Below, piece by piece: positions 34,604 to 51,982 of a stretch of 64,000 bases of DNA (its first letter is position 1; each line of letters starts with the position of its first letter). Position numbers and translations under genes: made by a program. Source of the DNA: Nesterenkonia muleiensis. Lineage in GTDB: Bacteria; Actinomycetota; Actinomycetes; Actinomycetales; Micrococcaceae. The notes beneath the pieces were generated by a model. That model had not been told where the DNA came from and ran no database searches. It was given only the letters and a program-made list of their open reading frames with translations. The stretch covers positions 248,001-312,000 of the forward strand of contig NZ_QWLD01000003.1 in NCBI RefSeq assembly GCF_003600155.1, given 5' to 3'.

Positions 34604-35152
34604 ATGCCCACACTTGAGCAGACCTCAGTACCAGCCTGGGCCGTCGCGACTGCTGGCATGCCCCTCGACCGTGTCGCCGCGCGCGCAGCCCTGGTCACTT
34701 TCGCTTCGGACCAGGAGCCGCGCAGGACCTGGGGGCAGGAACTGGACCACGCAGGCATCCCCTACGATCTGATTGATCTCTCAGAAGCCTCCAAAGCTGA
34801 TATCCGCCAAGCGGTGGGCCTCCTCATCGATTCAGCCTCGGTGGGTTTCCGGCTGATGCTCCACGGACCCCTGGCTCCAGTCCTGGCCGCCCGAGCCGCC
34901 GCCCTGGAGCATTCTCTGCTGGACGAAGAGATCATCGTCTGCACCACAGAGGTGTCAGAGATACCGCTGTACTGCGTCCACTGCACCGGAGAGTCAGTGG
35001 TCAGGGCCGCGATCGACGACGTCGTCACCTGTCTGCACTGCGGGACCGACCTGCTGGTCTATTACCACGTATCCCGCAGACAGGGCAGCTTCCTGGGATT
35101 CAAGCATGACGCTGAAGCCTACGAACTGACGGGTGCGGGAGAAGCCGCATGA
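34604..35152 (+). CDS. Dimethylamine monooxygenase subunit, DmmA-like family
   Basis: The 182-residue protein has an alpha/beta N-terminal domain (ARAALVTFASDQEPRRTWGQ) like a sulfite-reductase/flavodoxin-type fold, and a C-terminal zinc ribbon with two CxxC pairs (CVHC and CLHC) ending in LVYYHVSRRQGSFLGFKHDA. This matches the DmmA-like family found with DUF3445 proteins. It is the first of three overlapping genes for oxidative demethylation of dimethylamine. CAGGAG precedes the ATG. Its role within the complex is not established from sequence. Confidence 0.75.
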   Translation: MPTLEQTSVPAWAVATAGMPLDRVAARAALVTFASDQEPRRTWGQELDHAGIPYDLIDLSEASKADIRQAVGLLIDSASVGFRLMLHGPLAPVLAARAAALEHSLLDEEIIVCTTEVSEIPLYCVHCTGESVVRAAIDDVVTCLHCGTDLLVYYHVSRRQGSFLGFKHDAEAYELTGAGEAA

Positions 35153-36090
35153 GCGCGCCGACCCTGGAGTTGGAGATCGCAGACATCACTGAGTCAGCAC
35201 CTGAAGTGAGCACCCTGACGCTGAAGCACCCAGAAGGCCGAGTACTGCCCTCCTTCACCCCGGGCTCCCACTTGGTGCTCGAATGCTCAGGAAAAGCCAA
35301 CGCCTACTCGCTGATCTCAGACCCGGTCATGCCCACCAGCTACCAGATCTCCGTTCTGCGGATCCATGAAGGCAGCGGCGGCAGCCGCTGGCTTCACGAG
35401 CGACAGCCGGGGGAACGCCTGACAGCCCGTCCGCCCCGCTCCGCCTTCGCACCACAGCTGAAAGCCCGCAAGCAGCTGCTGATCGCCGGAGGCATCGGAG
35501 TTACCCCGATCTTCTCGCACCTGCGCGCTGCCGCCGCGTGGGGCATCCCCGTCGAAGTCCTCTACGCCCACCGGCCCGGTCACGGTGCCCACTGCGACGA
35601 GCTGAAGACCCTGGCCCCGGGCCGGGTCAGGTGTCTGGACTCGCGGGCGGAGTTCGCCGCCGCCTTCGCAGAGGCCGTGATCCGCCAGCCGATCGGTACG
35701 CATCTGTACTGCTGCGGCCCGGAGCCGTTCATGGACATTGTGGTCGGCACCGCCAGGGGGGCAGGCTGGCCGCCCGGACGGATTCACACTGAACGCTTCG
35801 GCATCGACGCCCTGGATCCCGGTGACCCCTTCGAGGTGGTGCTGACCGAGTCGAACCAGAAGTTCACCGTCCCGTCCGGGATCTCCCTGCTGGAGGCACT
35901 GGAGAAGAAGGGCTTCGACATCCCGAATCTCTGCCGCCAGGGTGTGTGTGGTGAATGCGTGCTCCCAGTCAGGACCGGGGCGGTCCTGCATCGCGACCAC
36001 TTCCTCACCGAGGAGGAGAAAGAGTCCGACGAACAGATGATGTGCTGCGTCTCCCGGGCGCGGGAGGAAGAACTGGAGATTGCCCTATGA
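35149..36090 (+). CDS. PDR/VanB-family reductase of dimethylamine monooxygenase
   Basis: The 313-residue protein carries an FMN/FAD-binding barrel (ANAYSLISDP), an NAD(P)-binding domain (GGIGVTPIFSHLRAA; YCCGPEPFM) and a C-terminal plant-type [2Fe-2S] ferredoxin (CRQGVCGECVLPVRTG and a later MCCVS). It feeds electrons from NAD(P)H to the heme oxygenase subunit encoded next. It overlaps the DmmA-like gene by 4 bp and the following gene by 4 bp (ATGA). Confidence 0.9.
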   Translation: MSAPTLELEIADITESAPEVSTLTLKHPEGRVLPSFTPGSHLVLECSGKANAYSLISDPVMPTSYQISVLRIHEGSGGSRWLHERQPGERLTARPPRSAFAPQLKARKQLLIAGGIGVTPIFSHLRAAAAWGIPVEVLYAHRPGHGAHCDELKTLAPGRVRCLDSRAEFAAAFAEAVIRQPIGTHLYCCGPEPFMDIVVGTARGAGWPPGRIHTERFGIDALDPGDPFEVVLTESNQKFTVPSGISLLEALEKKGFDIPNLCRQGVCGECVLPVRTGAVLHRDHFLTEEEKESDEQMMCCVSRAREEELEIAL

Positions 36091-37100
36091 CCACCACCGC
36101 ACCGCCGCTGGAGAGGGACCTGGTGGAGACCTTCCCCTTTCCCTTCCCGCAGGACACCTACCGGTACTCCACCAATGTGGAGCCGGCAGGCAAGCTGGTA
36201 CCCACACCCGCCGGACAGTGGGGTGCGTCCATGCTCCACGTGGACAGCGAGTACCACCATGAGCTGGACGAACGTGCTGCGATCCTCCAGCGGGATCCTT
36301 CCCGCCAGCAAGTGCTGCCTCATATGCGTCCGGCCGCATGGGACGCCATGCTGACCCTGATGCAGGAGCTGGGGACGGCCTACCCGCGGGAGTTCACACT
36401 CACCCGCGACGATGACGGCACCTTCACCTGGATCAACCGCAAGCAAGGCATCGAACAGCGGTTCACCTACGCCGATGAGACCACCCTGCCGGAGCCCGAG
36501 ACCGGCCCGCTGGGATTCATCGGATCCCAAGTGCAGGAGGACATCGCCCTGCTGGACCAGCGGGAGGGGCAGCTGTTCGTCGACGCCGGAATCATTACCT
36601 TTGCCGCCGACTGGAGTTTCGGCTTCGACGTCGGCATGAGCTTCCTGGAGATCCACGGCCCGGTCCCCCGGGTTCACGACATGGGGGTGATCGCCCGCGC
36701 CCAGACCTTCCTGATGCGGCTGCAGCCCTCGACGCCTTACCGGCGTACCAACTGGACCCTGACCATCGGGCGGCGACTGGACGTCTCCACCGAGGTCTAC
36801 CACGAATGGGGTCCTGATCGCGGGTGGATTCAGACCACCGATGACCAGACCTTCGGCGCAAGCGTCCATCTCCGCGTGGAGGTCCAGCACCTGGTGCGCC
36901 TGCCGGACTCCGGTGCGGTGATGTTCCTGATCCGCACCTACATGCTCCCTCTCGAACAGCTTGCCCGCATCGAGCCGTGGCGAGCCCGCACCCACGCGGT
37001 ACTCCAAGAGCTCCCGGAGGATATGGCCGACTACAAAGGCTTCATCTCCTACCGGGATCGCGCCGTCGCCTGGCTCGAAAGCCAGGCGCCGTCGTCGTAG
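36087..37100 (+). CDS. Heme-dependent oxidative N-demethylase (DUF3445), dimethylamine monooxygenase catalytic subunit
   Basis: From ATG 36087 the 337-residue product matches the DUF3445/HODM family, which oxidises dimethylamine to methylamine and formaldehyde: FAADWSFGFDVGMSFLEIHG, IHGPVPRVHD, QPSTPYRRTNWTLTIGRRLD and VEVQHLVRLPDSGAVMFLIR. The arrangement with a PDR reductase and a DmmA-like protein supports dimethylamine as the substrate. The frame is open upstream to 35955, but only the ATG overlapping the reductase stop gives the family N-terminus. Confidence 0.88.
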   Translation: MTTTAPPLERDLVETFPFPFPQDTYRYSTNVEPAGKLVPTPAGQWGASMLHVDSEYHHELDERAAILQRDPSRQQVLPHMRPAAWDAMLTLMQELGTAYPREFTLTRDDDGTFTWINRKQGIEQRFTYADETTLPEPETGPLGFIGSQVQEDIALLDQREGQLFVDAGIITFAADWSFGFDVGMSFLEIHGPVPRVHDMGVIARAQTFLMRLQPSTPYRRTNWTLTIGRRLDVSTEVYHEWGPDRGWIQTTDDQTFGASVHLRVEVQHLVRLPDSGAVMFLIRTYMLPLEQLARIEPWRARTHAVLQELPEDMADYKGFISYRDRAVAWLESQAPSS

Positions 37101-37157
37101 TCCCTGTCCCCTCACCAATGATCACTTCGCACTAGTAATGAATGGAGGTCTGCGCCG

Positions 37158-38387
37158 ATGGACGTCGAGATGATGCAGGAATTCGCAGACGTAGCGTGGA
37201 TATTGGCGGCCATGACGGTCGTCCTGCTGATGTTCCCCGGATTGGCGCTGTTCTACGGCGGCATGTCCGGGTCCAAGAATGTGCTCAATATGTTCGCCAT
37301 GGCGATGACCACCCTGGGCACGGTCTCAATCATCTATGTGTTCTACGGACACGGGATGGTGCTCGGCGAATCGCTGGGAGGTGTGATCGGCAATCCGACC
37401 GACTACTTCGGAATCATCGGCCATGAAGAGGTCGGGGTCGACGGAGGCTTCACCGAAATCATCGACCTGGCGTTCTTCACCCTCTTCGCCTGCATCACGG
37501 TGTCGATCATCGCCTCCGGCGCACTGGGCCGGATGAAGTTCTCGGCCTGGTTGGTGTTCTCGGTGGTCTGGGCCACCCTGGTGTACTTCCCCCTGGGCCA
37601 CTGGGTCTTCGGCGACGGCTGGATGGCTGAGTACATCAACTTCCACGACTACGCCGGCGGCACCGCAGTGCATATGGCCTCAGGGTTCGGCGCTCTGGCG
37701 CTTGCCCTGGTGCTGGGGCCGCGCAAGAACACTGGGACCAGGCCGCACAGCCTGCCTCTGGTGCTGCTCGGTGCAGGCATCCTGTGGATGGGCTGGTTCG
37801 GCTTCAACGGCGGCACAGCGGCAGGAGCCAATTACCTCGCCCAGTACACCATCATGACCACGCTCTACGCCGGTGGCACCGGCATGCTCGGGTTCATGTT
37901 CTATGAGAAGATCAGGACCGGGAAGGCTACGGTTCTGGGCATGGCCTCGGGCATCATCGCCGGTCTGGTGGCCATCACGCCTGCGGCCGATGCCGTGGAC
38001 CCCTTCGGTGCTCTCGCGCTGGGCTTCATCGCCGGCGCCTTCGTCGCCTGGGCATGCACCTGGAAGACCAGACTCGGAATCGATGAATCCCTGGACGCCT
38101 TCGCGGTGCACGGTATCGGGGGTATTGTCGGCGCGATGTTCGTGGTCTTCTTCGGCTGGGCCACCTACACCAACGACGAACCGATCCGCGGTGTGCTCTT
38201 CGGCGGCGACATCGGCCTGCTCGGTGGAGAGCTGATCGCAATCGGCGTGACCTGTGCCTATGCCTTCGGCATGACATGGATCATCGTGAAGATCATGGAC
38301 AAGACCATGGGCATCCGCGTCAGCGAGGAGGACGAGGACGACCTCGACTTCACCCTCCACGGCCAGACCGCCTACGACAACAAATAG
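37158..38387 (+). CDS. amt: Ammonium/methylammonium transporter
   Basis: The 409-residue Amt has an N-out layout with eleven helices. The twin pore histidines are seen in YAGGTAVHMASGFGALAL and DAFAVHGIGGIVGA, and the PLGHWVFG loop is present. GGAGG precedes the ATG at 37158. It follows the demethylase operon by 57 bp and precedes a PII gene by 11 bp. In this context it could take up methylammonium as well as ammonium. Confidence 0.95.
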   Translation: MDVEMMQEFADVAWILAAMTVVLLMFPGLALFYGGMSGSKNVLNMFAMAMTTLGTVSIIYVFYGHGMVLGESLGGVIGNPTDYFGIIGHEEVGVDGGFTEIIDLAFFTLFACITVSIIASGALGRMKFSAWLVFSVVWATLVYFPLGHWVFGDGWMAEYINFHDYAGGTAVHMASGFGALALALVLGPRKNTGTRPHSLPLVLLGAGILWMGWFGFNGGTAAGANYLAQYTIMTTLYAGGTGMLGFMFYEKIRTGKATVLGMASGIIAGLVAITPAADAVDPFGALALGFIAGAFVAWACTWKTRLGIDESLDAFAVHGIGGIVGAMFVVFFGWATYTNDEPIRGVLFGGDIGLLGGELIAIGVTCAYAFGMTWIIVKIMDKTMGIRVSEEDEDDLDFTLHGQTAYDNK

Positions 38388-38398
38388 GGAGAGCCGCC

Positions 38399-38737
38399 AT
38401 GAAACTCGTCACCGCAGTCATCCAGCGCAAGAAGCTCGACGCTGTCACCGAAGCGCTGGCCACCAAGGGAATCGGCGGTCTGACCGTCACCGATGTGCTC
38501 GGCTATGGCACCCAGGGGGGCCGCAAAGAGGTCTTCCGCGGCAAGGAGTTCTCCGTGGACTTCCTGCCCAAGACCAAGATTGAGGTGGTGGTACCCGGCG
38601 AAATCGTCGAGGAGATCATCGACGCCATAGTCGCCGCAGCACGCACCGGAGAGATCGGCGACGGCAAAGTCTGGGCCACTGAAATCACCGGCGTGGTGCG
38701 TGTGCGCACCGGCGAACACGGCGCCGACGCCATCTAG
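38399..38737 (+). CDS. PII signal-transduction protein, atypical T-loop
   Basis: The 112-residue protein opens MKLVTAVIQRKKLDAVTEAL and has VEFLPK-like VDFLPKTKIEVVV and the C-terminal GDGKVWATEITGVVRVRTGE, a clear PII. The T-loop is unusual: GYGTQGGRKEVFRGKEFSVD carries Phe at positions 46 and 51, so the Tyr51 used for uridylylation or adenylylation is absent, and the RQKG stretch is TQGG. It presumably gates the adjacent Amt without covalent control. The ATG at 38399 is preceded by GGGAGAG. Confidence 0.93.
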   Translation: MKLVTAVIQRKKLDAVTEALATKGIGGLTVTDVLGYGTQGGRKEVFRGKEFSVDFLPKTKIEVVVPGEIVEEIIDAIVAAARTGEIGDGKVWATEITGVVRVRTGEHGADAI

Positions 38738-38763
38738 TCCCCCACTTCCATGTGGGCCCTCCC

Positions 38764-38807
38764 GAAGGTGGGGGTGTCTGTCACCGACAGCAGACACCCC
38801 CACCTTC
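38764..38807. terminator. Strong stem-loop between converging operons
   Basis: A perfect 17-bp stem (GAAGGTGGGGGTGTCTG, 38764-38780; its complement 38791-38807) with a 10-nt loop lies 26 bp after the PII stop and 33 bp before the end of the convergent XRE-cupin gene. It probably terminates transcription from both sides. Confidence 0.85.
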
Positions 38808-38840
38808 TCCTGCGCGGACCACCGCCGCGGCGCCTGAGGA

Positions 38841-39518
38841 TCAGTGATAGGTGTTGTCCGGAAACGCGATGATAGAGAGGAACCGGATAGGAAGCTCCAG
38901 CAGCCCGGTCGGCCCATGCGGTGCTTCGCCGTCGAACTGCAGGGTGTCTCCGGGAGCAAGCCGGTAGGTGGAGATGCCGTGGCCGTACTCCATCACACCT
39001 TCAAGCAAGTAGATGAACTCGGTGCCGGGGTGCTGAAAGAGGGGATAGGCATCTGAGTCCTGGCTCAGGGTGACAAGGAGGGACTCCAGGCGCTTGTGCT
39101 GGCCGCGAAGCGCGCCCAACAGCTCGTAGGCGTGCCCGGCCTTGGTTCCGTTGCGAGTGATCATGGGTCCGTTTCCGGCAGCGGTGTAGACCGCTTCCCG
39201 CTCCGTATCGGCACCCCGGAACAGGCTGGTCACAGGAACGTCAAGCCCGCGTGCCAACAGCCCCAGCGTGGACAGTGAGGAGGAGGTCTGGGCATTCTCA
39301 ACCTTGGAGAGCATCGCCTTGGAGAGGCCGATCCGCTCAGCCATCTCTGAGACCGAGAGCCCGTGCTGCTGCCTCAGTGCACGAACGTTGAAGCCAATGG
39401 TCTCGGCAAGGCTATCCGTTGACAGCGGTTCATCGGCAGCGCGTTCGCGCGCTTGTCCAGCCACATTGCGAAGCAGCTGCTCGTCGCCGTCGGTGGGTTC
39501 AGGGTTCTCTGCAGTCAT
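38841..39518 (-). CDS. XRE-family regulator with C-terminal cupin
   Basis: The 225-residue protein has an N-terminal acidic extension, an HTH (LRQQHGLSVSEMAERIGLSK) at about residues 50-95, and a cupin domain (FQHPGTEFIYLLEGVMEYGH; YRLAPGDTLQFDGEAPHGP). XRE-cupin regulators of this shape often sense amine or amino-acid metabolites, such as PuuR for putrescine. It lies beside the amine-oxidase operon and is the best candidate for its regulator. GTG 39521 and ATG 39518 are both possible starts. Confidence 0.9.
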   Translation of the reverse strand: MTAENPEPTDGDEQLLRNVAGQARERAADEPLSTDSLAETIGFNVRALRQQHGLSVSEMAERIGLSKAMLSKVENAQTSSSLSTLGLLARGLDVPVTSLFRGADTEREAVYTAAGNGPMITRNGTKAGHAYELLGALRGQHKRLESLLVTLSQDSDAYPLFQHPGTEFIYLLEGVMEYGHGISTYRLAPGDTLQFDGEAPHGPTGLLELPIRFLSIIAFPDNTYH

Positions 39519-39580
39519 CACTCTAGGGTAATTGACGTTTCCCCGGAGGAGACAACAATTCGTCGACTCTTGTCTGGCTC

Positions 39581-40714
39581 TCAGCTGCGGAAAGCGAACC
39601 GGGGCAGGACCGACCTGCTCTCCACAGCGTCAGCAATGAGTCTGCCCAGCAGCGGTGCGAACTTGGCACCGTGCCCGGAGCAGGGCGAGGCCACCGTGAT
39701 GGGCCCCACCGTGTCGATCAGAAAGTCCTGATCGCCGGTCATGGTGAACAGGCAACTGGCCGCCGCCACCGGATCATGTTCGAGTCCGGGGAAGTGCTGC
39801 TCCAGGTATCGCCCGACGTCGCGCCTGGCACGCGGGTCGATCACCTTGTCCCGTCCACTGGCCGTCGTCGGAAAAGCACTGTTGAACTGGCCGATCTTCA
39901 TCGCCGGCTCAGCCCCTCCGTCAGCACCCGAGGGCAATGTGTAGAACTCGCCGTCGCCCTCCCGGGAACGCCCTTTGTGCACCACAGTGGGGTAATGCAC
40001 CGTCGCATCGCGCTGACGGAAGTAAAAGACCTCCTGCTGCTTGACGGTGAACTGCGGCAGCTCGGGCTTGAGTCCCAGCTCGCGCAGGAATCCCGGCAAC
40101 TGCTCCGGCAGCCACGCCCCCATGGAGAGCACCACATGTGATGCTGACCATGAGGCCCCGGTCTCCGCGTGAACCATGATTCCGCTCTCCATAGCCTCGA
40201 TCGACTCCACCGTCACGCCTGTGCTGACCTCGGCGCCGTGCCGCTCGGCCAGGCGCACCATCGCTGCCACTGAGGTGTCGGCGTTGAGCCATCCGGCGTC
40301 TGGATGGAACATCGTAGGTTCGTCAACCCTGATTCCGGGCCAGCGCTCTGCGATCTCCTGGGCAGTCATCATCTGCGCCGAAACGCCGCTGGAACGCAGC
40401 ACCTCCAACAGTCCCGCCGGATCGCGCGCTCCTCCGGTGTCCAGGCCGCCGGTGAAGGTTCTCAGCGGCTGACCGGACTCAGCTTCCAACTGGTCCCAGT
40501 AGCGCTCCGCTATGCCGGTGAGTTCGACATAGAAGGGGTCTGCATATGCTCGCCGGAAGATGCGGGAAGTGCCGTGGCTGGAACCGTGGGGGTGTCCGAT
40601 GCGGAACCGCTCGAGCAGCGCCACGCCGCACCCCGACGCCGCAAGATGCCAGGCCGCAGATGCACCGGCCAGCCCGGCCCCGATGACGACGACATCTGCC
40701 TCAGTGGTGACCAA
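39581..40714 (-). CDS. solA: FAD-dependent amine oxidase, SolA/monomeric sarcosine oxidase family
   Basis: The 377-residue DAO-type flavoprotein has VVIGAGLAGASAAWHLAASG, the SSHGTSRIFRRAY motif of monomeric sarcosine/N-methyltryptophan oxidases, a Lys in MKIGQF where MSOX activates oxygen, and a Cys in AASCLFTMTGDQDF where MSOX binds FAD covalently. It overlaps the preceding glutamate-synthase-like gene by 14 bp, so it works in the same pathway. In this context N-methylglutamate is a plausible substrate; the exact secondary amine is unproven. Confidence 0.85.
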   Translation of the reverse strand: MVTTEADVVVIGAGLAGASAAWHLAASGCGVALLERFRIGHPHGSSHGTSRIFRRAYADPFYVELTGIAERYWDQLEAESGQPLRTFTGGLDTGGARDPAGLLEVLRSSGVSAQMMTAQEIAERWPGIRVDEPTMFHPDAGWLNADTSVAAMVRLAERHGAEVSTGVTVESIEAMESGIMVHAETGASWSASHVVLSMGAWLPEQLPGFLRELGLKPELPQFTVKQQEVFYFRQRDATVHYPTVVHKGRSREGDGEFYTLPSGADGGAEPAMKIGQFNSAFPTTASGRDKVIDPRARRDVGRYLEQHFPGLEHDPVAAASCLFTMTGDQDFLIDTVGPITVASPCSGHGAKFAPLLGRLIADAVESRSVLPRFAFRS

Positions 40715-42044
40715 CAGCGCCCCCGGGAATCCAGTCGGTACCCGCCAGCGGCACCTTCGCCATGGCCGCGGACTCCACGGTAAGAGCGACCAGATCCTCC
40801 GGCTCCAGATGGTTCACATGAGACTTGCCGCAGGCCCGGGCGATGGTCTGCGCCTCCATCGTCATCACCTGAAGGTAGTTGGCCAGCCTGCGTCCGGCGG
40901 TCTCAGGGTCCAAGCGCTTCTGGAGTTCAGGGTCCTGGGTGGTGATGCCCGTAGGGTCCCTGCCGTCCTGGTAATCGTCGAAGAACCCGGCGGCGGAGCC
41001 GAGCTGCTCATATTCCTCGGCATAATCGGGGTCGTTGTCGCCCAGTGCGATCAGCGCCGCCGAACCGATCGCTACCGCGTCCGCACCCAGCGCCAAGGCC
41101 TTGGCGACGTCGGCTCCGGTGCGGATACCTCCAGAGACGATGAGCTGGACCTCCCGCTCCACTCCGAGCTCGCGCAGGGCGCAGGCTGCCTGCGGTACCG
41201 CAGCAAGGGTGGGGATGCCCACATGTTCGATGAAGACCTCCTGGGTAGCCGCCGTAGACCCTTGCATTCCGTCGACGACCACGACGTCGGCTCCGGCGTG
41301 GACTGCCAGCTTGACGTCGTAGTAGGTGCGGGACGCTCCGACTTTGATGTATACCGGCACCTTCCAGTCGGTAATCTCACGCAGCTCCTGAATTTTGATG
41401 GTCAGGTCGTCAGGCCCGGTCCAGTCCGGATGCCTGCAGGCCGAGCGCTGGTCGATGCCCACTGGAAGGGTGCGCATTTCAGCGACTCGCTCCGTGATCT
41501 TCTGCCCCAGCAGCATTCCGCCTCCGCCGGGCTTGGCACCCTGGCCGAGGACCACCTCAATGGCATCGGCCATGCGCAGGTGGTCGGGGTTCATTCCGTA
41601 GCGGGAGGGCAGGTACTGATAGACCAGGGTCTTGGACTGCCGTCGCTCCTCATTGGTCATCCCGCCGTCTCCGGTGGTGGTGGAGGTGCCCACCGCGGAG
41701 GCTCCGCGGCCCAATGCTTCTTTGGCACGCCCGGAGAGCGCACCGAAGCTCATCCCGGCGATGGTGACCGGGATGTCCAGATGAAGAGGGTTTTCCGCGT
41801 AGCGGGCACCGAGGACCACATCGGTGCCGCAGCGCTCACGATAGCCCTCGAGCGGGTATCGGGACATGGAGGCGCCCAGGAAGAGCAGATCGTCGAAATG
41901 GGGCAGACGCCGCTTGGAACCGCCACCGCGGATGTCGTAAACGCCGGTCTCTGCAGCTCGGCGGATATCAGCGATGGTGGCACGGTCAAAGGTGGCGGAC
42001 TCGCGCAGTCCACGTGCGGCGCGCATATCGGATCGTGTGGTCAC
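40701..42044 (-). CDS. FMN-binding glutamate-synthase-like subunit (GlxD / MgsC type)
   Basis: The 447-residue protein corresponds to the FMN domain of glutamate synthase: AGMSFGALSGRAKEALGRGA, EVVLGQGAKPGGGGMLLGQK and ELGVEREVQLIVSGGIRTGA. In N-methylglutamate synthase this subunit transfers the methylamino group from gamma-glutamylmethylamide to 2-oxoglutarate. The triple-Cys [3Fe-4S] motif of GltB is not evident. It follows GlxC by 13 bp and overlaps the oxidase downstream. A different amide donor remains possible. Confidence 0.85.
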   Translation of the reverse strand: MTTRSDMRAARGLRESATFDRATIADIRRAAETGVYDIRGGGSKRRLPHFDDLLFLGASMSRYPLEGYRERCGTDVVLGARYAENPLHLDIPVTIAGMSFGALSGRAKEALGRGASAVGTSTTTGDGGMTNEERRQSKTLVYQYLPSRYGMNPDHLRMADAIEVVLGQGAKPGGGGMLLGQKITERVAEMRTLPVGIDQRSACRHPDWTGPDDLTIKIQELREITDWKVPVYIKVGASRTYYDVKLAVHAGADVVVVDGMQGSTAATQEVFIEHVGIPTLAAVPQAACALRELGVEREVQLIVSGGIRTGADVAKALALGADAVAIGSAALIALGDNDPDYAEEYEQLGSAAGFFDDYQDGRDPTGITTQDPELQKRLDPETAGRRLANYLQVMTMEAQTIARACGKSHVNHLEPEDLVALTVESAAMAKVPLAGTDWIPGGAVGHH

Positions 42045-42057
42045 TGATGGTCCTCTC

Positions 42058-42753
42058 TCAGTAGCTGGCCGCGTTGTCTACCCTGAAGTGGTAGAGCCGG
42101 CGCGCTGAGCCGTAACGGGTGTAGTCGCGGGTGTCGTCGTCGGAGTATCCGGCGGCGTCGAGGAGCTCCCTCAACTCCGAGTGATGCTCTTGGCTCATGG
42201 GCTTGGGGATGCAGTCAGCACCGAGCGAGGAGACCTCGCCCCTGACGAAGAGGCGGGCCTCATAGATGGAGTCGCCGAGTGCCTCACCGGCGTCCCCACG
42301 CACGACGAGCCTGCCGGATTGAGCCATGAAGGCGCTCATATGGCCGATGCTTCCGCCGACGATGATGTCCACGCCCTTCATGGAGATGCCGCAGCGAGCT
42401 GCGGCATCCCCGTCGATCACCAGCATGCCTCCGTGGGCAGTGGCGCCGGCGGACTGGCTGGCGTTTCCCTGGACATGCACCCGGCCGCTCATCATGTTCT
42501 CGGCGACACCGACCCCGGCATTGCCGGTGATGGTGATGGCAGCATGCTTGTTCATGCCGGCGGCGTAGTACCCGACGTGTCCCTCTACGGTGATCTGGAC
42601 CTCGGCGTCGACCCCTGCTGCCACTGCGTGGGCTCCGCGAGGATTGGTGATCAGGACCTCCCCTGTCAGATCCTCTGCATGCAGCGCCTGGTTCGCCTCT
42701 CGCAAGGTGGTGGTGGAGAGGTCAAAGATGAGGGTATCGATTGCGGTGCTCAT
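42058..42753 (-). CDS. Glutamate-synthase GXGXG-domain subunit (GlxC / MgsB type)
   Basis: The 231-residue beta-helix protein matches the C-terminal GXGXG domain of glutamate synthase as a separate subunit: VEGHVGYYAAGMNKHAAITI, GNAGVGVAENMMSGRVHVQG and GGSIGHMSAFMAQSGRLVVR. It is a structural partner of the FMN subunit. The ATG at 42753 overlaps the GlxB stop by 4 bp. Confidence 0.88.
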   Translation of the reverse strand: MSTAIDTLIFDLSTTTLREANQALHAEDLTGEVLITNPRGAHAVAAGVDAEVQITVEGHVGYYAAGMNKHAAITITGNAGVGVAENMMSGRVHVQGNASQSAGATAHGGMLVIDGDAAARCGISMKGVDIIVGGSIGHMSAFMAQSGRLVVRGDAGEALGDSIYEARLFVRGEVSSLGADCIPKPMSQEHHSELRELLDAAGYSDDDTRDYTRYGSARRLYHFRVDNAASY

Positions 42754-43679
42754 GCAATTGCCACCTCCTTCAGCTCGGCCTGCTTCCGCGACCATGCGTA
42801 GATCCTGTTCGGCTCGGGCTCATAGAGGATCGCGTCCTCCACCCCGGGCAGTTCGGCCAATGCGCGGTATTCACTGGCCATGGCGACCCAGTCCTCGGTT
42901 TCGGCGATGATCGCAGGCTTACAGGCGATGGCATCGCGGACCACGGCGAAGGAGTCCCGGTCTGAGACCAGCAGAGTGTAGAAGCCGTCGAAATTCTCGG
43001 CGAGCGCGTCGACGGCCTGCTCCAAGCCGCTGCCCTCGATCATCCGGTCAGCGATGAACCGGGCCCCGACTTCGGTGTCGTTCTCCGAGTCGAACTCCAC
43101 GCCTTTGCGCCTCAGCTCCCGGCGGATGGTGGCGTGGTTGGAGAAGCTGCCGTTGTGCACCATGCACTGCCCGTCACCTACCGCATAGGGATGACAGCCT
43201 CCTGGGGTCACCGCGGACTCGGTGGCCATCCGGGTATGGCCGACCCCCTGCCAGCCCTCGGCGCTGCGGAGGCCGTAGGCCTCGGCAAGGTCACGCGGGT
43301 GGCCGACCCCCTTGAGCACTGCGAGGTCCTGCCCGAAGCCGCAGATGAGCGCCTCCGGGGCGATCTCCGCCACAGCTGTCTTCAACTCTTCAACGTCGGT
43401 GACGGCGCTGGCCAGCTGGGTGGCGTCGGCCTGATGCACGCTCACCTCGGTGCCAAGCTGCGCGGTCAGCGCCTCGGAGAGCTCCCCGGCTGTGAGACCG
43501 GATTCCAGCACTGAGACGGTGACAGTTCCCGGTGGTGACCAGGTGGGGTCGCCGTAGACGGCCACACCTGCCGAATCGGCGCCGCGCTCCTCCATCTCAC
43601 AGAGCATGGAGGTCAGCAATTTTCCCAGTCTCGGGTAGAGCTCGGGATTGCGCAGGTGCAATCCGACGATTCCGCACAT
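42750..43679 (-). CDS. Class-II glutamine amidotransferase subunit (GlxB / MgsA type)
   Basis: The 309-residue Ntn-type amidotransferase starts MCGIVGLHLRNPELY, exposing the catalytic Cys2, and shows GHTRMATESAVTPGGCHPYA and VHNGSFSNHATIRRELRRKG. With GlxC and GlxD it forms a three-subunit glutamate-synthase-like enzyme. In the N-methylglutamate pathway the hydrolysed amide is gamma-glutamylmethylamide. It follows the GS-like gene by 15 bp. Confidence 0.9.
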   Translation of the reverse strand: MCGIVGLHLRNPELYPRLGKLLTSMLCEMEERGADSAGVAVYGDPTWSPPGTVTVSVLESGLTAGELSEALTAQLGTEVSVHQADATQLASAVTDVEELKTAVAEIAPEALICGFGQDLAVLKGVGHPRDLAEAYGLRSAEGWQGVGHTRMATESAVTPGGCHPYAVGDGQCMVHNGSFSNHATIRRELRRKGVEFDSENDTEVGARFIADRMIEGSGLEQAVDALAENFDGFYTLLVSDRDSFAVVRDAIACKPAIIAETEDWVAMASEYRALAELPGVEDAILYEPEPNRIYAWSRKQAELKEVAIA

Positions 43680-43694
43680 GTTTGCGTGTCCTTT

Positions 43695-45011
43695 CTAGAA
43701 GGCGGTCAGGTAGCGTGTCAGCTCCCATTCGGTGACCTGGGCGTGGTAGTCGTAGAACTCTTGGCGTTTGATCTTGGCGTAGTAACCGCCGACATCCGGA
43801 TTGACGGTTCCGAGGACATCCAGAATGGTCTTGTCGGTCTCAAAGGATTCGACGGCGTCCATGAGCGTCAGCGGCAGCCTGGGAGCATCCTCTCGCTTCC
43901 CGCCGGGGGTTCCCGGGCTGGTCTTCTTGGCAATGCCGTCCAGCCCGGCGCCGATGAGCGCGGCCGCGGCAAGGTAGGGGTTGGCGGAGCCGTCGCCGCC
44001 GCGCAGCTCGACGCGCTGCTCGTCGGGCACGCGAATATAGTGAGTGCGGTCGTTGCCGCCGTATGTGGCGGTGCGCGGGGCCCAGGACGCACCGGAGGTG
44101 GTCGACACGGCACCGGTGCGCTTATAGGAGTTGACGGTGGGAGCCAGCAGGGCCTGTAGGGCGCAGGCATGTTCCAGCAGCCCGCCGACGAAGTGGTAGG
44201 CGGTCTCGGAGAGTCCCAGTCCATGGAGATCCTTGTTCTCACCGGGAAAGACCGGCTTGCCCTGTGAGGTCAGAGAGATGTGGAAGTGCAGGCCTGAGCC
44301 GGTGCGGTCGGCAAAAGGCTTGGGCATAAAGGTGGCGATCATGCCGCGTTTCTCTGCGACCATGGTGATGAGGTAGCGCAGGGTGACCACTCGGTCGGCA
44401 GTGGTGAGGGCGTCGGCGTAGCGGAAGTTCTGCTCGAACTGACCGTTGCCGTCCTCATGGTCGTTGGCGTAGTTTCCCCAGCCCAGGGCGTTCATGGCCT
44501 GCGAGATCTCGGAGAGGTGCCCGAACATGCGGGTGACGCCGCGGGCGTCGTAGCAGGGCTGGGCGTGGTTGTCGCCATCGTCGGCGGTGACGAGCTTGCC
44601 GTTCTCGTCCCTCTTCAGCAGGAAGTACTCCACTTCAGCGCCCAGATGCGGCTCGAAGCCGCTCTCGGCGGCGCGGGCGATCAGGTCTTTGAGGATCACG
44701 CGCGGCGAGTAGCCCCAGCGTTCGCCCTCCACATGCGGGTCGCAGTGGACGATGGCCAGGCCCTCGCGGATGAACGGCACCGGAGTGAAGCTGGAGGCGT
44801 CGGGCAAAGCCATGATGTCGGGGTCCTTCGGCTCCTGGCCCATGGCCCCGGCGGCGTAGCCGGCAAAGCCGACGCCCTCCTCAATGAGCGTATCGAGGGC
44901 TTCGACGGGCACCAGTTTGGCGCAGGGCTTGCCGTGGAGGTCGACGAAGAGCGCCAGGATGAATGTGGTGCCGTGCTCTGCGACGAGGTCTTTGAGATCC
45001 GGGGAGGACAT
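43695..45011 (-). CDS. Glutamine-synthetase-like enzyme (GlnT / gamma-glutamylmethylamide synthetase type)
   Basis: The 438-residue protein is a GS-fold ligase: HEDGNGQFEQNFRYAD, GSGLHFHISLTSQGKPVFPG and SWAPRTATYGGNDRTHYIRV. It belongs to the GlnT/GmaS group rather than GlnA. Coupling to three Mgs-type subunits suggests ligation of methylamine to glutamate, giving gamma-glutamylmethylamide. AAGGT upstream favours ATG 45011 over the GTG at 45026. An operator-like palindrome lies 40 bp upstream. Confidence 0.85.
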   Translation of the reverse strand: MSSPDLKDLVAEHGTTFILALFVDLHGKPCAKLVPVEALDTLIEEGVGFAGYAAGAMGQEPKDPDIMALPDASSFTPVPFIREGLAIVHCDPHVEGERWGYSPRVILKDLIARAAESGFEPHLGAEVEYFLLKRDENGKLVTADDGDNHAQPCYDARGVTRMFGHLSEISQAMNALGWGNYANDHEDGNGQFEQNFRYADALTTADRVVTLRYLITMVAEKRGMIATFMPKPFADRTGSGLHFHISLTSQGKPVFPGENKDLHGLGLSETAYHFVGGLLEHACALQALLAPTVNSYKRTGAVSTTSGASWAPRTATYGGNDRTHYIRVPDEQRVELRGGDGSANPYLAAAALIGAGLDGIAKKTSPGTPGGKREDAPRLPLTLMDAVESFETDKTILDVLGTVNPDVGGYYAKIKRQEFYDYHAQVTEWELTRYLTAF

Positions 45012-45050
45012 GGACGTACCTTTCACTGCCAGGAATCAGTGTACACCTCA

Positions 45051-45073
45051 AGTAAACACATGATGTGTTTCAG
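45051..45073 (-). promoter_or_regulatory. Amine-island operator-like palindrome (copy B)
   Basis: AAACACAT-g-ATGTGTTT (45054-45070) is a near-perfect 8+1+8 palindrome 40 bp upstream of the GS-like gene. Its flanks (CTGA/TACT read on the minus strand) match copy A before the dimethylamine operon. Confidence 0.65.
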
Positions 45074-45107
45074 AGGTGTGAACGGAGGGTCTCAGCAGCG
45101 AAACAAG

Positions 45108-45139
45108 GAGGCGGCAGCACTGCGCAGTGCTGCCGCCTC
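45108..45139 (-). terminator. Palindromic terminator after tmm
   Basis: GAGGCGGCAGCACTGC (45108-45123) and its exact complement (45124-45139) form a 16-bp perfect palindrome 21 bp after the tmm stop, with the loop taken from the centre. It separates the tmm operon from the GS-like operon. Confidence 0.8.
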
Positions 45140-45159
45140 GCATGGTCCGCGCCGTGCAG

Positions 45160-46518
45160 TCAGGGAGCCGCGGCCTTGGCAGCGGCTGAGGTCAGATACG
45201 CCTCCAGGCTGTCGTCCAGAGCCTGCATCCAGGACGTATGGTGCGGCACCGCCACGGTTCCAGTCATCACTGAGCGGTAGCACCGGTCACGGTAAGTGAG
45301 GATGTCCTCCTTCTTATCGTGCTTCCACTCCAGGAAGGTCTCAACCACAGTGTCCAGGTCGAAGGCAGGATAGTCAGTAGCCTCGATGAGGTCCTTGATG
45401 TAGTCGGCCTGGAACTGCACATCATCACGCACTGTGGCGGCCGCCTCCATGCGGGAGAGCCACCTGTTGACATCATTCCGCCGCTGCTCAGCCTGCGGCA
45501 ACCCTATCCGGCCCAGAATCACATCTCGAACGAACCAGGCCTGTGCGTCGAACATGTTGAAAGTGAACCACTGATCCTGCATGCCCAGGTAGTAGAAGCC
45601 CGGAGCACCTTCATAGACGACCCCTTTGTAGAGGTTGTCCGGGTACAAGGTGTTCGCGGTGCGAAGCTTCAGCTCCTCGGATAGGAATGGGAAGTGGTGA
45701 CGGTACCCGGTGGCCAGGACCACCGCGTCGAAATCGCGGGAGCGTCCGTCGGCGAAGTGCACCGCTGTCCCTTCGAAACGTTCCACCAGGGGCCATTCCT
45801 GAAGGCTCTGCGGCCAGCCGAAGCCCATGGGAGCGCTGCGATAGCTGAAGGTCACAGAGGCCGCCCCCAGCTTATGGGACTGGATGCCGATATCCTCCGC
45901 CGAGTAGCTTCCCCCAATGACCAGCAGGTGCTTGCCCGCCAGATGCTCCGCGCCACGGAAGTCGTGGGCGTGGACGACTGGACCCGGGAAGGTTTCGATG
46001 CCGGAGAAGGACGGCACATTCGGGTAGGAGAAGTGCCCGGAGGCGACGATGACCTCGTCGAACTGCTCGGTGGTCTCGGTCTGGCTGGGCAGGTGCTCCG
46101 CTGTGACCAGATAGCCGCCGCTCCGGTGGGCCTCCACACGACGCACCGAGGTGGAGAGCCTCACCCAATTCTTCAGCCCGGCGCCGGCCACACGGCCGTT
46201 GATGTAGTCCCACAGCACCGCCCGGGGCGGATAGGAGGAGATGGGGCGGCCGAAGTGGTCGTCAAAGGTGTAGTCAGCGAACTCCAAGCACTCCTTGGGC
46301 CCGTTGGACCACAGGTGACGGTACATGCTGGAGTGGACAGGCTCGCTGTACTCATCCACACCAGTGCGCCAGGTATAGTTCCACTGCCCGCCCCAGTCGG
46401 ACTGCTTCTCGTAGCAGACGATCTCAGGGATTTCCGCTCCCTGGGCGGCCGCGGAGGCAAAGGCTCGCAGCTGGGCCATGCCGGACGGGCCGGCTCCGAT
46501 GATGGCAACGCGCGTCAT
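45160..46518 (-). CDS. tmm: Trimethylamine monooxygenase (flavin-containing monooxygenase)
   Basis: Tmm oxidises trimethylamine (and often dimethyl sulfide) to its N-oxide with NADPH and FAD. The 452-residue protein has GAGPSGMAQLRAFASAAAQG (FAD), the FMO fingerprint FPGPVVHAHDF, GGSYSAEDIG (NADPH), and long segments I recognise from bacterial Tmm: QSDWGGQWNYTWRTGVDEYS, MYRHLWSNGPKECLEFADY and QDQWFTFNMFDAQAW. Length matches the 445-460 of the family. A cupin gene ends just upstream; a strong terminator follows. Confidence 0.92.
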   Translation of the reverse strand: MTRVAIIGAGPSGMAQLRAFASAAAQGAEIPEIVCYEKQSDWGGQWNYTWRTGVDEYSEPVHSSMYRHLWSNGPKECLEFADYTFDDHFGRPISSYPPRAVLWDYINGRVAGAGLKNWVRLSTSVRRVEAHRSGGYLVTAEHLPSQTETTEQFDEVIVASGHFSYPNVPSFSGIETFPGPVVHAHDFRGAEHLAGKHLLVIGGSYSAEDIGIQSHKLGAASVTFSYRSAPMGFGWPQSLQEWPLVERFEGTAVHFADGRSRDFDAVVLATGYRHHFPFLSEELKLRTANTLYPDNLYKGVVYEGAPGFYYLGMQDQWFTFNMFDAQAWFVRDVILGRIGLPQAEQRRNDVNRWLSRMEAAATVRDDVQFQADYIKDLIEATDYPAFDLDTVVETFLEWKHDKKEDILTYRDRCYRSVMTGTVAVPHHTSWMQALDDSLEAYLTSAAAKAAAP

Positions 46519-46524
46519 GGCTGA

Positions 46525-46905
46525 TCAGGCAGCGAAGTCGCGGTCGCCGGCGAAGAAGCCCAGGGCGTAGTCGTCGGTCTCGAACCGAACCGGGGTGCCT
46601 TTCGGGAAGAAGAGGATGTCTCCTTTGTTGGCGATCACCTGCTCGCCGGTGTTGAGCTCGGTGAGCTTGAACTGACCCTCGACGACGAGCTTCATCTCGT
46701 CGTATGTGTAGGTGTAGTCCAGGGGGCTTCCGGCTTTGAGCTCGAAGAAGCCGCTGCACATGCGGGCACCTTCGGGGTTCATGTAGGCATCGCCGATGAA
46801 TGCCTCCACACCGGGCTCGTTCATTGAGGGGATGCCGCTCTTGGCGCCCTCCACCTTGTGGATGGCACCACCTTTGGTCATCGTGCCGAGCAGTTGCTGT
46901 TCCAT
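46525..46905 (-). CDS. EutQ-like cupin protein
   Basis: The 126-residue single-domain cupin has MCSGFFELKAGSPLDYTYTY, DEMKLVVEGQFKL (first cupin motif, lacking the usual two His) and KGDILFFPKGTPVRFETDDY (second motif), resembling EutQ/DUF861 proteins. It lies 6 bp before tmm in the same operon. Few metal-ligand His residues are present, so a metal-independent binding or protein-stabilising role is as likely as catalysis. Confidence 0.75.
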   Translation of the reverse strand: MEQQLLGTMTKGGAIHKVEGAKSGIPSMNEPGVEAFIGDAYMNPEGARMCSGFFELKAGSPLDYTYTYDEMKLVVEGQFKLTELNTGEQVIANKGDILFFPKGTPVRFETDDYALGFFAGDRDFAA

Positions 46906-46949: not shown

Positions 46950-47801
46950 TCAGGCCGCGTGCTTCATGCGGGTATCGCAGTTTTCAGCCACGGCTCCGAT
47001 GGCGGTCAGAGTCTGATCTACGGTCAGGGTGCGGTAGCCCTGGGTGATGCGGGTGCCGTCACGCTGGGAGTGACGCCGCTCCAGCAGGGCTGCGCGAGTG
47101 CTTGCGTCGACCTCGTCGAGCCTCTGCCCGAAAATCTCCAGCCAGAGGCGCAGGTCCCTGACGCTGCTGGGTCCTGCACCCATGGCCAGCAGCGTCTCAT
47201 CGTCGGCGTCGTTGAACTGCTTGTGAAGCCGTTGCGGATCCAGGACGTCCTCGACCATGGATTCGCAGTCGGCGTCGTCGGTGCGGACCCAGGTGTCGGC
47301 GCCCTCGGCGCTCCCACCCGGCGAGTAGGCGTAGGCCGAGGCGAGCTGCTCGCGGAAGCTGGCGGCATCGGTCCAGCCGCTGGGCGCTTCGCGCACCCAG
47401 TCCTGATCATCGGCACTGACGGCAGGGCGGTCGGGCACCAGCAGGCGGGTGATAGCGCGGTCCCGGACAGCCCCAAGGACCTCGTAGGCGTCGGCGGGGA
47501 GAAAGACCTCACGCCGCGGCGGCCAGACATCCATCGGTGAGAAATCACCGTGGTGGCCACCAACGTGGAAGAGGAACAGTGGAGGGTACTGATCCCGGCG
47601 GCGACTGGGCAGGGCAGCGTAGAAGAGGGCCACAGCGGACTGAATCATCGCACTGGCGCCGACCGCACCCATCGGTTCGTCGACGACGACGCCAATGCGG
47701 TCCCACAGTGCCCACCGGGGAAGCACCTCCTGCAGTGTGCAAGGATGTCCGGACCGCTGTGCGGTGAACAGCTCTGGCCAGCACTGCACGGAGACATGCA
47801 T
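46950..47801 (-). CDS. Hypothetical protein, first gene of the tmm operon
   Basis: I do not recognise this 283-residue protein. It starts MHVSVQCWPELFTAQRSGHP after GGAGGGG, and contains DQYPPLFLFHVGGHHGDFSP, MDVWPPRREVFLPADAYEVL and a charged helical C-terminal half (LRLWLEIFGQRLDEVDASTR). There is no signal peptide or membrane segment. The HVGGHHGDFSPMD cluster could bind metal. It precedes the cupin by 44 bp and tmm; its place in the operon suggests a role in trimethylamine or TMAO handling, but that is inference. Confidence 0.7.
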   Translation of the reverse strand: MHVSVQCWPELFTAQRSGHPCTLQEVLPRWALWDRIGVVVDEPMGAVGASAMIQSAVALFYAALPSRRRDQYPPLFLFHVGGHHGDFSPMDVWPPRREVFLPADAYEVLGAVRDRAITRLLVPDRPAVSADDQDWVREAPSGWTDAASFREQLASAYAYSPGGSAEGADTWVRTDDADCESMVEDVLDPQRLHKQFNDADDETLLAMGAGPSSVRDLRLWLEIFGQRLDEVDASTRAALLERRHSQRDGTRITQGYRTLTVDQTLTAIGAVAENCDTRMKHAA

Positions 47802-47967: not shown

Positions 47968-48741
47968 TCACATCTCCTCAAGAGCTCCGGGGTCCTCCGG
48001 CAGAACCTGGCCACCGTCGACCACCAGCGTCTGGCCGGTGACATAGCCGGCCTGCGGCGAGGCGAAGTAGAGCGCGGCGTAGCCGATGTCCTCCACCGCG
48101 CCGAGCCGCTTCTGCGGGATCGCCGCGGCCATACCGTCCAGATACTCCTGACCGAGATCAGCCAGCCCCTCGGTCATGATGTTGCCCGGCAGCACGGCGT
48201 TGATGGTCACCCCGCGCGGGGCCAGCTCCATCGCGGCGGTGCGCACATAGCCGAGCTGGGCGGCCTTGCTCGCCCCGTAGTGCGCCCACCCGGGGTAGCC
48301 GGTGATCGGGCCGGTGATCGACGAGGTCACCACCACCCGTCCGAGTGCCGAAGCCGCCAGATGATCCAGGCAGGCCGCCACGCAGAAAGCCGTGCCGTAG
48401 AAGTTGGTGCCGATCACCTCATCCAGGGCCGCCCGGTCCAGATTCTCCAGCCGGGCGGAGGGGAAAATCCCCGCATTGGTGCACAGCGCATCGATGCCGC
48501 CGAAGGCCTCCACGGTCGCAGCGGCCAGCTCACGGCAGGACTCCTCGCTGGTCACATCGGTGACCTGGGTGGCCACCGGCGCATTGCCCAGGCTCTGTGC
48601 CGCCGCGTCCAGCGACACCTGGCTGCGCCCGGCGATCATCACGTTCGCCCCGGCGGAGGTGAAGACCCGTGCGATCCCTAAGCCGATCCCCTTGCTGCCG
48701 CCGGTGATGACCACCGTGCGACCCTCAAAAGTGCTAAACAC
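47968..48741 (-). CDS. Short-chain dehydrogenase/reductase
   Basis: The 257-residue SDR has the TGxxxGIG cofactor loop ([18 protein letters not shown]), NAG ([11 protein letters not shown]), the catalytic Ser in VTSSITGPI and the YxxxK pair in HYGASKAAQ. It is the last gene of the kinase/copper-amine-oxidase operon, 13 bp after the oxidase, so it may process an amine-derived carbonyl product. Substrate unknown. Confidence 0.9.
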
Positions 48742-48754
48742 AGCTCATTCCTCC

Positions 48755-50764: not shown

Positions 50765-50779
50765 GACAGGGTTGTCCTT

Positions 50780-51868
50780 TCAGTCGAGGAGCCAGGTGGC
50801 GGAGGTCAGATAATTCTGGGCTATCCGAGCAGTGCCAGGGACTTGCTGAGCCCAAATCGCCGGCGGCAGGGCGTCCTCACGGTGGGTGGTGGTCCAGCCG
50901 ACCATCTGCAGGCGGCGGATCATACTCAGCGCGCAGGCATAGCTGATCTGGTCCTGGTTCAGCGGCCGCACCGAGGTGTAGCCGGCGATCCAGTCCTTGG
51001 CGATCGCCGGAGTGTAGGTCTCATGTTCGATGAAAGTGAAGGCCGAGGCGAAGTCGTAGAGGAACCAGCTGAAGCCGCAGTCGTCGAAGTCGATGACGGT
51101 GAGTTCCCCGCCTGCGCTCATGATGTTGGAGGGCCGCAGATCGGCATGGATCAGCCCGAGGCCCTGCCCCGACTGCGTCAGTGGCGCGACCTCCTGCAGT
51201 GCTTTGGCCTCAGCGGCCGCCATGAGGCTCTGCTGCTCAGGCGTCAGTTCGGCATTGCGCCAGTCGCCCCAGCGCGAGCCTTCTCCCAGCATGTCCTCGA
51301 TGTTCCAGGTGAACCGGTCGAAGTCCTCCGGCCGGCTCCACCGCTGGGACTGATCGTGGAACTGAGCGGTGATCTCACCGATCCGTCGGTAGTACGGGCG
51401 CGGGTCTGTCATGTCCTCGAGCACCTCGCCCTCGATGAAGGCGAAAGCCACCACATACCAGGGCCCGTCTGCGGTCTTAGGCGGTTCAGCCGGCTGATCG
51501 ACCGCGAGCATCAGCGAGCCGTCGGGCAGCGGCAGCACCTCCGGGACCGGCACATCTGTCTCGGCCGCCAGCGCCTGCACCCAGGTCAGCTCCGAGGCGA
51601 TCTGCTGGGGATCCACATAGGCGGGTCGGTGTACCCGCAGTACTGCGCGGGGGCGGCCGTCCACCTCAAGGCGGAACGTGGCGTTCTCGGATACCGCGAT
51701 GAGCTTGATCGTTGTGCTCATCGAGTCCAGGCCCCAGCCGGCGGTCACGGCCTCAGCGAGCCAGGCGGGGGCGTCGTCGTTCTTCTGCAGGGCGGCGAAG
51801 ACGGCGAACGGGTCAGCGGCGGCAACGGTGGAATCAGTCACAGTTCCATAGTGCGTCGTCCATGTCAC
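50780..51868 (-). CDS. APH/choline-kinase-type phosphotransferase
   Basis: The 362-residue protein has the aminoglycoside-phosphotransferase fold: GLIHADLRPSNIMSAGG (Brenner HxDxxxxN motif) and LTVIDFDDCGFSWFLYDFAS (DFD metal site). It is divergent from a class-III PLP enzyme and leads the copper-amine-oxidase operon. Pairing of such kinases with class-III PLP phospho-lyases is known for ethanolamine and hydroxylysine breakdown, so an amino-alcohol substrate is likelier than an antibiotic. Confidence 0.82.
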   Translation of the reverse strand: MTWTTHYGTVTDSTVAAADPFAVFAALQKNDDAPAWLAEAVTAGWGLDSMSTTIKLIAVSENATFRLEVDGRPRAVLRVHRPAYVDPQQIASELTWVQALAAETDVPVPEVLPLPDGSLMLAVDQPAEPPKTADGPWYVVAFAFIEGEVLEDMTDPRPYYRRIGEITAQFHDQSQRWSRPEDFDRFTWNIEDMLGEGSRWGDWRNAELTPEQQSLMAAAEAKALQEVAPLTQSGQGLGLIHADLRPSNIMSAGGELTVIDFDDCGFSWFLYDFASAFTFIEHETYTPAIAKDWIAGYTSVRPLNQDQISYACALSMIRRLQMVGWTTTHREDALPPAIWAQQVPGTARIAQNYLTSATWLLD

Positions 51869-51895
51869 ATCAAATGTTTCCTAATACACCCAATC

Positions 51896-51914
51896 GTTTA
51901 CACACATGAAACAC
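51896..51914. promoter_or_regulatory. Amine-island operator-like motif (copy C)
   Basis: GTTTAC-acacat-GAAACAC sits in the 114-bp divergent gap between the kinase and PLP-enzyme genes. It contains the same GTTTAC and GAAACAC words as copies A and B but in everted order. A further TGTTTC lies 16 bp to its left. Confidence 0.4.
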
Positions 51915-51982
51915 TGGGGGAAGCGGCTAGGGGTCCTCGCCTGTCAGGATGGGAGCAGTGCAGATTCATCAGGAGGATCACT

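Follow-up and report, generated by a model that had tools for sequence, protein, structure and literature searches.

A candidate oxygen-dependent N-methylglutamate oxidase in a methylated-amine gene island of Nesterenkonia muleiensis

Which enzyme recovers glutamate from N-methylglutamate in a bacterium that has the genes to make this intermediate and lacks the dehydrogenase MgdABCD? The question is raised by a methylated-amine gene island at positions 34604-46518 of the window, by which we mean the whole 64,000-nucleotide stretch of Nesterenkonia muleiensis DNA analysed here (contig NZ_QWLD01000003.1, positions 248,001 to 312,000; G000:C9:248001-312000 in our labelling, G000 being the source genome). 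All the named genes of the island are intact open frames. We propose, at a probability of roughly 0.7, that the flavoprotein encoded at 39581-40714 acts as an N-methylglutamate oxidase in place of MgdABCD, its substrate being the step most in doubt. The proposal draws on the gene content of the island, the overlap of the flavoprotein gene with mgsC, the absence of MgdC and MgdD homologues from the genome, an MSOX active site, and a clade with its linkage to mgsC; from these we infer the substrate, the products, the use of O2 and the role in vivo.

The island would represent a variant of the known N-methylglutamate pathway with a new last step, supplying nitrogen to the cell. Tmm would oxidise trimethylamine to its N-oxide (TMAO), a further enzyme would release dimethylamine from TMAO, DmmABC would convert dimethylamine to methylamine, GmaS would join methylamine and glutamate into gamma-glutamylmethylamide, and MgsABC would turn the latter into N-methylglutamate. 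The oxidase, standing in for MgdABCD, would then catalyse N-methylglutamate + O2 -> glutamate + formaldehyde + H2O2, and the formaldehyde would pass to a mycothiol-dependent dehydrogenase encoded elsewhere in the genome. If true, an O2-dependent last step would yield H2O2 and formaldehyde together with no respiratory acceptor, changing both energy yield and stress. The core row reads as follows.

39581..40714, minus strand: MSOX-family FAD oxidase, proposed N-methylglutamate oxidase (DAO fold, active-site residues, clade and linkage)
40701..42044, minus strand: mgsC, FMN glutamate-synthase domain (PF01645, 300.1 bits, cut-off 20.4)
42058..42795, minus strand: mgsB, GXGXG domain (PF01493, 37.9 bits, cut-off 32.5)
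42750..43679, minus strand: mgsA, class II glutamine amidotransferase domain (PF13522, 64.4 bits, cut-off 27)
43695..45026, minus strand: gmaS, gamma-glutamylmethylamide synthetase (TIGR03105, 602.6 bits, cut-off 469.6)

The oxidase frame opens with TTG at 40714 (second codon GTC) and mgsC ends at 40701, which bears out the 14-bp overlap reported in the first-pass annotation of this DNA.

Active site of the flavoprotein behind mgsC

The protein matches the DAO family (PF01266, 155.5 bits, cut-off 27.9) and, modelled as MSOX, has the fold of the MSOX/MTOX family of DAO oxidases. In common with MSOX and MTOX (SolA), it retains the cysteine that binds FAD covalently, the lysine that activates O2 and the Arg52/Tyr55/Lys348 carboxylate clamp of MSOX; it differs from them in an identity of 28-30%, in the replacement of the MSOX gate residue Met245, in the clade-specific features R96, K246, D264, an S-P-C motif and A349, and in its operon with mgs. 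Plain SolA/MTOX or MSOX identity is ruled out by scores under both curated cut-offs, namely 234.9 bits against 257 for N-methyltryptophan oxidase (PRK11259) and 204.1 bits against 479.65 for monomeric sarcosine oxidase (soxA_mon). The SolA/MSOX label given at first therefore holds at the level of the MSOX family, in fold and residues, and fails as a SolA equivalog. Heterotetrameric sarcosine oxidase and MgdABCD are alike in the expected chemistry, amino-acid N-demethylation, and their catalytic chain is distantly related; they consist, however, of four chains against one here, and no GcvT or folate part was seen in or beside the oxidase.

MgdABCD and what stands beside mgsC in other genomes

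The source genome has no match to SoxG (PF04268), the homologue of MgdD, which is present in 8 of 21 genomes searched, including a genus mate (G071), and in none of 14 control genomes. SoxA (TIGR01372), the homologue of MgdC, gave long matches in four of five genomes searched, three of them above the cut-off; among those three is G071, which carries both homologues. No full-length SoxA/MgdC was found in the source genome, where the best TIGR01372 match spans only 594-988, the GcvT part, and where Methylophaga MgdC as query returned three matches, of which two fall in the GcvT part and the third is 43 residues long. With the controls positive, the missing MgdC and MgdD homologues lead us to reject mgdABCD elsewhere in this genome and extend to the whole assembly the absence first noted for the island; no separate search was made for MgdB or for MgdA, a member of the broad DAO family, of which the genome holds several. 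The case for absence is strong rather than absolute, because the assembly (3.68 Mb) consists of 57 contigs at 98.18% completeness.

The proteobacterial N-methylglutamate pathway (GmaS, MgsABC, MgdABCD) agrees with the island in the GmaS and MgsABC families, in gene order and in the catalytic residues of GmaS, and differs in that here MgdABCD is missing and a single-chain DAO stands behind mgsC. For two Mycobacterium strains (sp. 141/155), the covered part of PMC5023230 describes GmaS-MgsABC clusters and attributes the final reaction to mgdABCD homologues at other places in those genomes; the same part makes no mention of a DAO beside mgsC. Those clusters share gmaS-mgsABC with the island; the differences are that the genome analysed here lacks mgdC and mgdD homologues and that its DAO beside mgsC belongs to the MSOX kind, another DAO type being present in the mycobacterial mgsC loci that we examined. 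No report of an N-methylglutamate oxidase was found among the titles and abstract starts of the open-licence PMC literature.

Within the order, mgsC occurred in 17 of 297 genomes (the source genome and 16 others, 69-86% identical to the window's mgsC). Three of the 16 have an MSOX-type oxidase adjoining mgsC; in the genomes of Bifidobacteriaceae type, mgsC is followed by a CCG/Fe-S protein, EtfB, EtfA and a DAO of another kind. A set of named loci, the best 80 of at least 580 mgsC relatives, comprised 61 from Actinomycetota and 19 from Pseudomonadota; MgdC lies near mgsC in 14 of the 19 and in none of the 61. A single-chain DAO of one of three types is found in 56 of the 61 actinobacterial loci: 14 belong to the MSOX-type clade, 41 to type B (any DAO match in the fetched stretch outside that clade, not of the ETF type and with no accompanying MgdC) and one is ETF-linked, with no DAO match in the fetched stretch of the other five. 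The MSOX-type oxidase starts within 90 bp of mgsC in 11 of its 14 loci (aligned ends). Type B, distant from MgdA, occurs among the actinobacterial mgsC loci L048-L123, in genera including Mycolicibacterium, Gordonia, Nocardia and Rhodococcus; in the last two it does not directly follow mgsC but stands upstream of gmaS or at a greater distance. The account first given, framed for this island, was too narrow in scope, since all 61 actinobacterial loci lack MgdC beside mgsC.

Two side observations emerge from this survey. Type B is probably another stand-in for Mgd, and the order mgsC, CCG/Fe-S protein, EtfB, EtfA and DAO at L029:9461-16042 and at related Bifidobacteriaceae-type loci looks like an ETF-coupled third variant.

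Only the window's MSOX type retains the oxidase lysine among the rows checked. The corresponding position holds Leu in 13 type B rows (of 42), Gln or Val in three ETF-linked rows and Val in three proteobacterial MgdA rows, and the position of the flavin-linking cysteine holds Gly in all of these rows; that the DAO type with its own ETF genes is one without the lysine is as would be expected. This comparison bears on the alternative that the protein does work on N-methylglutamate, only as a dehydrogenase passing electrons to some acceptor other than O2. The proteobacterial enzyme is indeed a dehydrogenase, and the Bifidobacteriaceae version is accompanied by EtfA, EtfB and the Fe-S/CCG protein. 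In the window's clade, however, every row tabulated has both the O2-activating lysine and the flavin-linking cysteine, in contrast to the residues of the other three groups at the lysine place, and neither an ETF nor a CCG homologue stands beside its members, so that we regard a dehydrogenase as very improbable and retain the oxidase.

Joining these observations, we give about even odds to a broader reading, in which Actinobacteria as a group would have exchanged the four-subunit N-methylglutamate dehydrogenase for single-chain flavoproteins on at least three independent occasions: for an MSOX-type true oxidase, for a second DAO without the O2 lysine, and for an ETF/Fe-S-coupled DAO in termite-gut-type Bifidobacteriaceae. 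The first would be a new enzyme, N-methylglutamate oxidase, owing its specificity to R96 and K246 reading the gamma-carboxylate. If this holds, a methylamine pathway of global importance would end in several solutions unrelated in detail instead of in one enzyme, and mgdABCD would be a poor marker of the pathway in Actinobacteria.

Clade, mobile module and residue signature

A search of plasmids with the oxidase returned three records, the best from Streptomyces sp. NBC_01320. Its genes run glnT, glutamine amidotransferase, glutamate synthase, FMN glutamate synthase, FAD oxidoreductase and S-(hydroxymethyl)mycothiol dehydrogenase, with transposase genes on either side and an oxidase/mgsC overlap of 11 bp. 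This order may be read as methylamine in, formaldehyde out and detoxified; the position of the oxidase between mgsC and a mycothiol-dependent formaldehyde dehydrogenase fits formaldehyde as its product. Outside the window, the source genome encodes such a dehydrogenase of its own (628.1 bits against a cut-off of 512.9). If true, the proposal would also supply a testable enzyme for N-methylglutamate measurement and a module that is both compact and movable.

The window's oxidase pairs with the Streptomyces plasmid oxidase (support 99/90) in a tree of 55 rows, from which one paralogue of the source genome (L005) was left out; another (L006) is only in an 89-row tree, which omits L033 (same contig as L124). 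The window's sub-clade has six rows, all mgsC-linked, and a wider clade of 22 rows (support 100/98) has 19. As a label on the tree, mgsC linkage requires 4 changes against 16.0 in shuffles, of which 0 of 500 were as low.

The signature residues R96 and K246 are given in A1 numbering and correspond to Arg97 and Lys247 of the 377-aa protein. R96 is found in all 19 mgsC-linked rows and K246 in 18 of them, L069 having Gln instead. Of 27 unlinked homologues at a greater distance, only L136, the row adjoining the clade, has either residue, and it has both; neither occurs in three reference enzymes or four paralogues of the source genome. Their places lie near Phe100 and Met245, the gate residues of MSOX according to the covered part of PMC12582975, in an alignment that shifts by a few columns near R96 in distant references, two alignments disagreeing for MSOX at 96 and 100. 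The unlinked Streptomyces cadmiisoli protein has Asp and Glu at 96 and 246 and keeps the remaining clade motif, and the unlinked G069 has Met in place of K246. We read R96 and K246 as a putative site that binds the N-methylglutamate gamma-carboxylate and that one member would have reversed once it had left the pathway.

Several observations weigh against the proposed function. Three members nested in the clade have no mgsC nearby (G054, G069 and the S. cadmiisoli plasmid), although they sit among linked ones as losses would; in G054, whose genome lacks mgsC altogether, both R96 and K246 are retained, and the signature is thus not dependent on the pathway. The count of 19 in 22 is inflated because the linked rows were mostly collected through mgsC. 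From the oxidase side, a phylum search of 396 genomes gave 48 matches (29 besides the window's entered the residue table and tree, the rest being without locus) and finds the clade in three genomes, one with mgsC; the plasmid search gives the clade in two records, one with mgsC, or two of five members overall. The formaldehyde dehydrogenase adjoins a single clade member, and a homologue occurs at 2 of 96 other mgsC loci, both of type B. Furthermore, MSOX His269 is Phe in the oxidase, N-methylglutamate could also be the substrate of any of five other proteins of the source genome (four MSOX-family frames and a distant DAO), and a copper amine oxidase 2 kb beyond tmm could oxidise methylamine directly.

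For more distant oxidase homologues, 46 genomes of the phylum have a match and five have mgsC, which in the four besides the source genome lies on another contig or about 2 Mb off; these unlinked proteins exclude the notion that all relatives of the oxidase work on N-methylglutamate.

The unlinked members, together with the MSOX-family paralogues of the source genome, lend some weight to another account, in which the oxidase acts on a different N-methyl or N-alkyl amino acid (sarcosine, or a product of ureide or methylhydantoin breakdown) and merely travels with mgs, the demethylation of N-methylglutamate falling to some other enzyme that the genome encodes. Moreover, the oxidase has a neighbour of the M20 amidohydrolase family (allantoate/N-carbamoyl type) in 7 of 14 named clade loci and in the unlinked G054. 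Nevertheless, the window's sub-clade is mgsC-linked throughout and free of M20, its oxidase gene overlaps mgsC, the gate Met245 is replaced with two clade-specific basic residues nearby, and in the NBC_01320 module a second demethylase would not fit between mgsC and the gene for formaldehyde dehydrogenase. We consider a different substrate unlikely and prefer N-methylglutamate. The O2-dependent variant put forward at the outset is thus favoured by the residues of the oxidase, the absence of Mgd and the plasmid module, and qualified by the 3 of 22 clade members without mgsC and by a predicted substrate.

The M20 amidohydrolase (allantoate/N-carbamoyl amino acid type) also occurs more widely, at 19 of the 61 named actinobacterial loci (e.g., L025:6833-8041), and may connect ureide or methylurea breakdown to methylamine.

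The copper enzyme (48755-50764) matches primary-amine oxidase PRK11504 at 871.8 bits, and the covered part of PMC5023230 offers a precedent in Arthrobacter strains that use a copper methylamine oxidase; were it to oxidise methylamine here, GmaS, Mgs and the flavoprotein would form a side route, either minor or nitrogen-limited. Among solved structures, however, the copper enzyme is closest to phenylethylamine oxidase (501.5 bits, against about 396-402 for yeast methylamine oxidase), its neighbours, an ethanolamine/choline-kinase-like APH protein and a class III aminotransferase, suggest another amine, and it would not account for the overlap of mgsC and the flavoprotein gene. Such a route seems scarcely probable to us, and the N-methylglutamate oxidase is preferred.

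Upstream steps and neighbouring genes

The ligase is closest among solved structures to GmaS (7cql, 379 bits) and glutamate-methylamine ligase (9qur, 359.6 bits), with the best glutamine synthetase at 190.2 bits, which rules out an ordinary glutamine synthetase. With regard to the residues named in the covered part of PMC7948447, it keeps Lys30, Tyr147, Asp177, Glu179, Glu186, Asn188 and Trp300, carries Ala at the place of Asp50, which binds ammonium in glutamine synthetase, and departs at one pocket residue, Gln175 to Ala. It is GmaS-like, with a methylamine-type catalytic pattern. MgsA, MgsB and MgsC are complete and in a row; the earlier assignment of a GmaS-like ligase and an MgsABC-like synthase stands on this pattern and this row, with their activities as predictions. 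The rest of the island is as follows.

34604..35152, plus strand: dimethylamine monooxygenase, DmmA-family subunit (NF041259, 98.2 bits, cut-off 60; PF22289, 45 bits)
35149..36090, plus strand: dimethylamine monooxygenase, reductase subunit, Fer2 and NAD-binding (PF22290, 74.5 bits, cut-off 33; PF00111, 47.1)
36087..37100, plus strand: dimethylamine monooxygenase, haem subunit, HODM alpha-like (PF11927, 225.5 bits, cut-off 25; no NCBIfam match)
37158..38387, plus strand: Amt ammonium/methylammonium transporter (TIGR00836, 397.5 bits, cut-off 343.3)
38399..38737, plus strand: PII signal protein (PF00543, 92.8 bits, cut-off 25)
38841..39521, minus strand: XRE-cupin regulator (PF01381 and PF07883)
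45160..46518, minus strand: tmm, trimethylamine monooxygenase (NF058570, 746.5 bits, cut-off 675)
46525..46905, minus strand: EutQ-like cupin adjoining tmm (PF06249, 50 bits)

The family matches over their cut-offs confirm the clustering of dimethylamine monooxygenase, Amt/PII, ligase, synthase and Tmm that had been noticed at first sight. The DmmA-family, reductase and haem subunits, assigned by family, stand in one row, and the enzymes for dimethylamine and trimethylamine agree with the covered part of PMC5520151. A homologue of the XRE-cupin regulator is present at 54 of the 61 actinobacterial and 14 of the 19 proteobacterial mgsC loci. Tmm lies near mgsC at none of the 80 named loci and PII at one; rows that unite Tmm, Dmm, PII and Mgs are rare among the loci sampled. 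The GC content of the island (about 63-65%) differs little from that of its surroundings (60-69%), and nothing in it points to a recent import.

Tdm, the TMAO demethylase, is a long single chain in which DUF1989 is fused to GcvT. A canonical Tdm was not found in the source genome, where there is only a 223-aa frame with PF09347, and for this reason the EutQ-like cupin could, speculatively, be a candidate for the step from TMAO to dimethylamine. Of the 13 actinobacterial mgsC loci with Dmm genes, 7 have a homologue of this cupin as well. The covered part of PMC5023230 notes EutQ-like genes in the vicinity of Tmo and Mao.

Beyond the cupin, a 283-aa frame at 46950-47801 has no Pfam or NCBIfam match. 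It is followed at 47968-53326 by a short-chain dehydrogenase, the copper primary-amine oxidase, the APH/choline-kinase-like protein and the class III aminotransferase, which form a second amine cluster next to the island, perhaps for ethanolamine.

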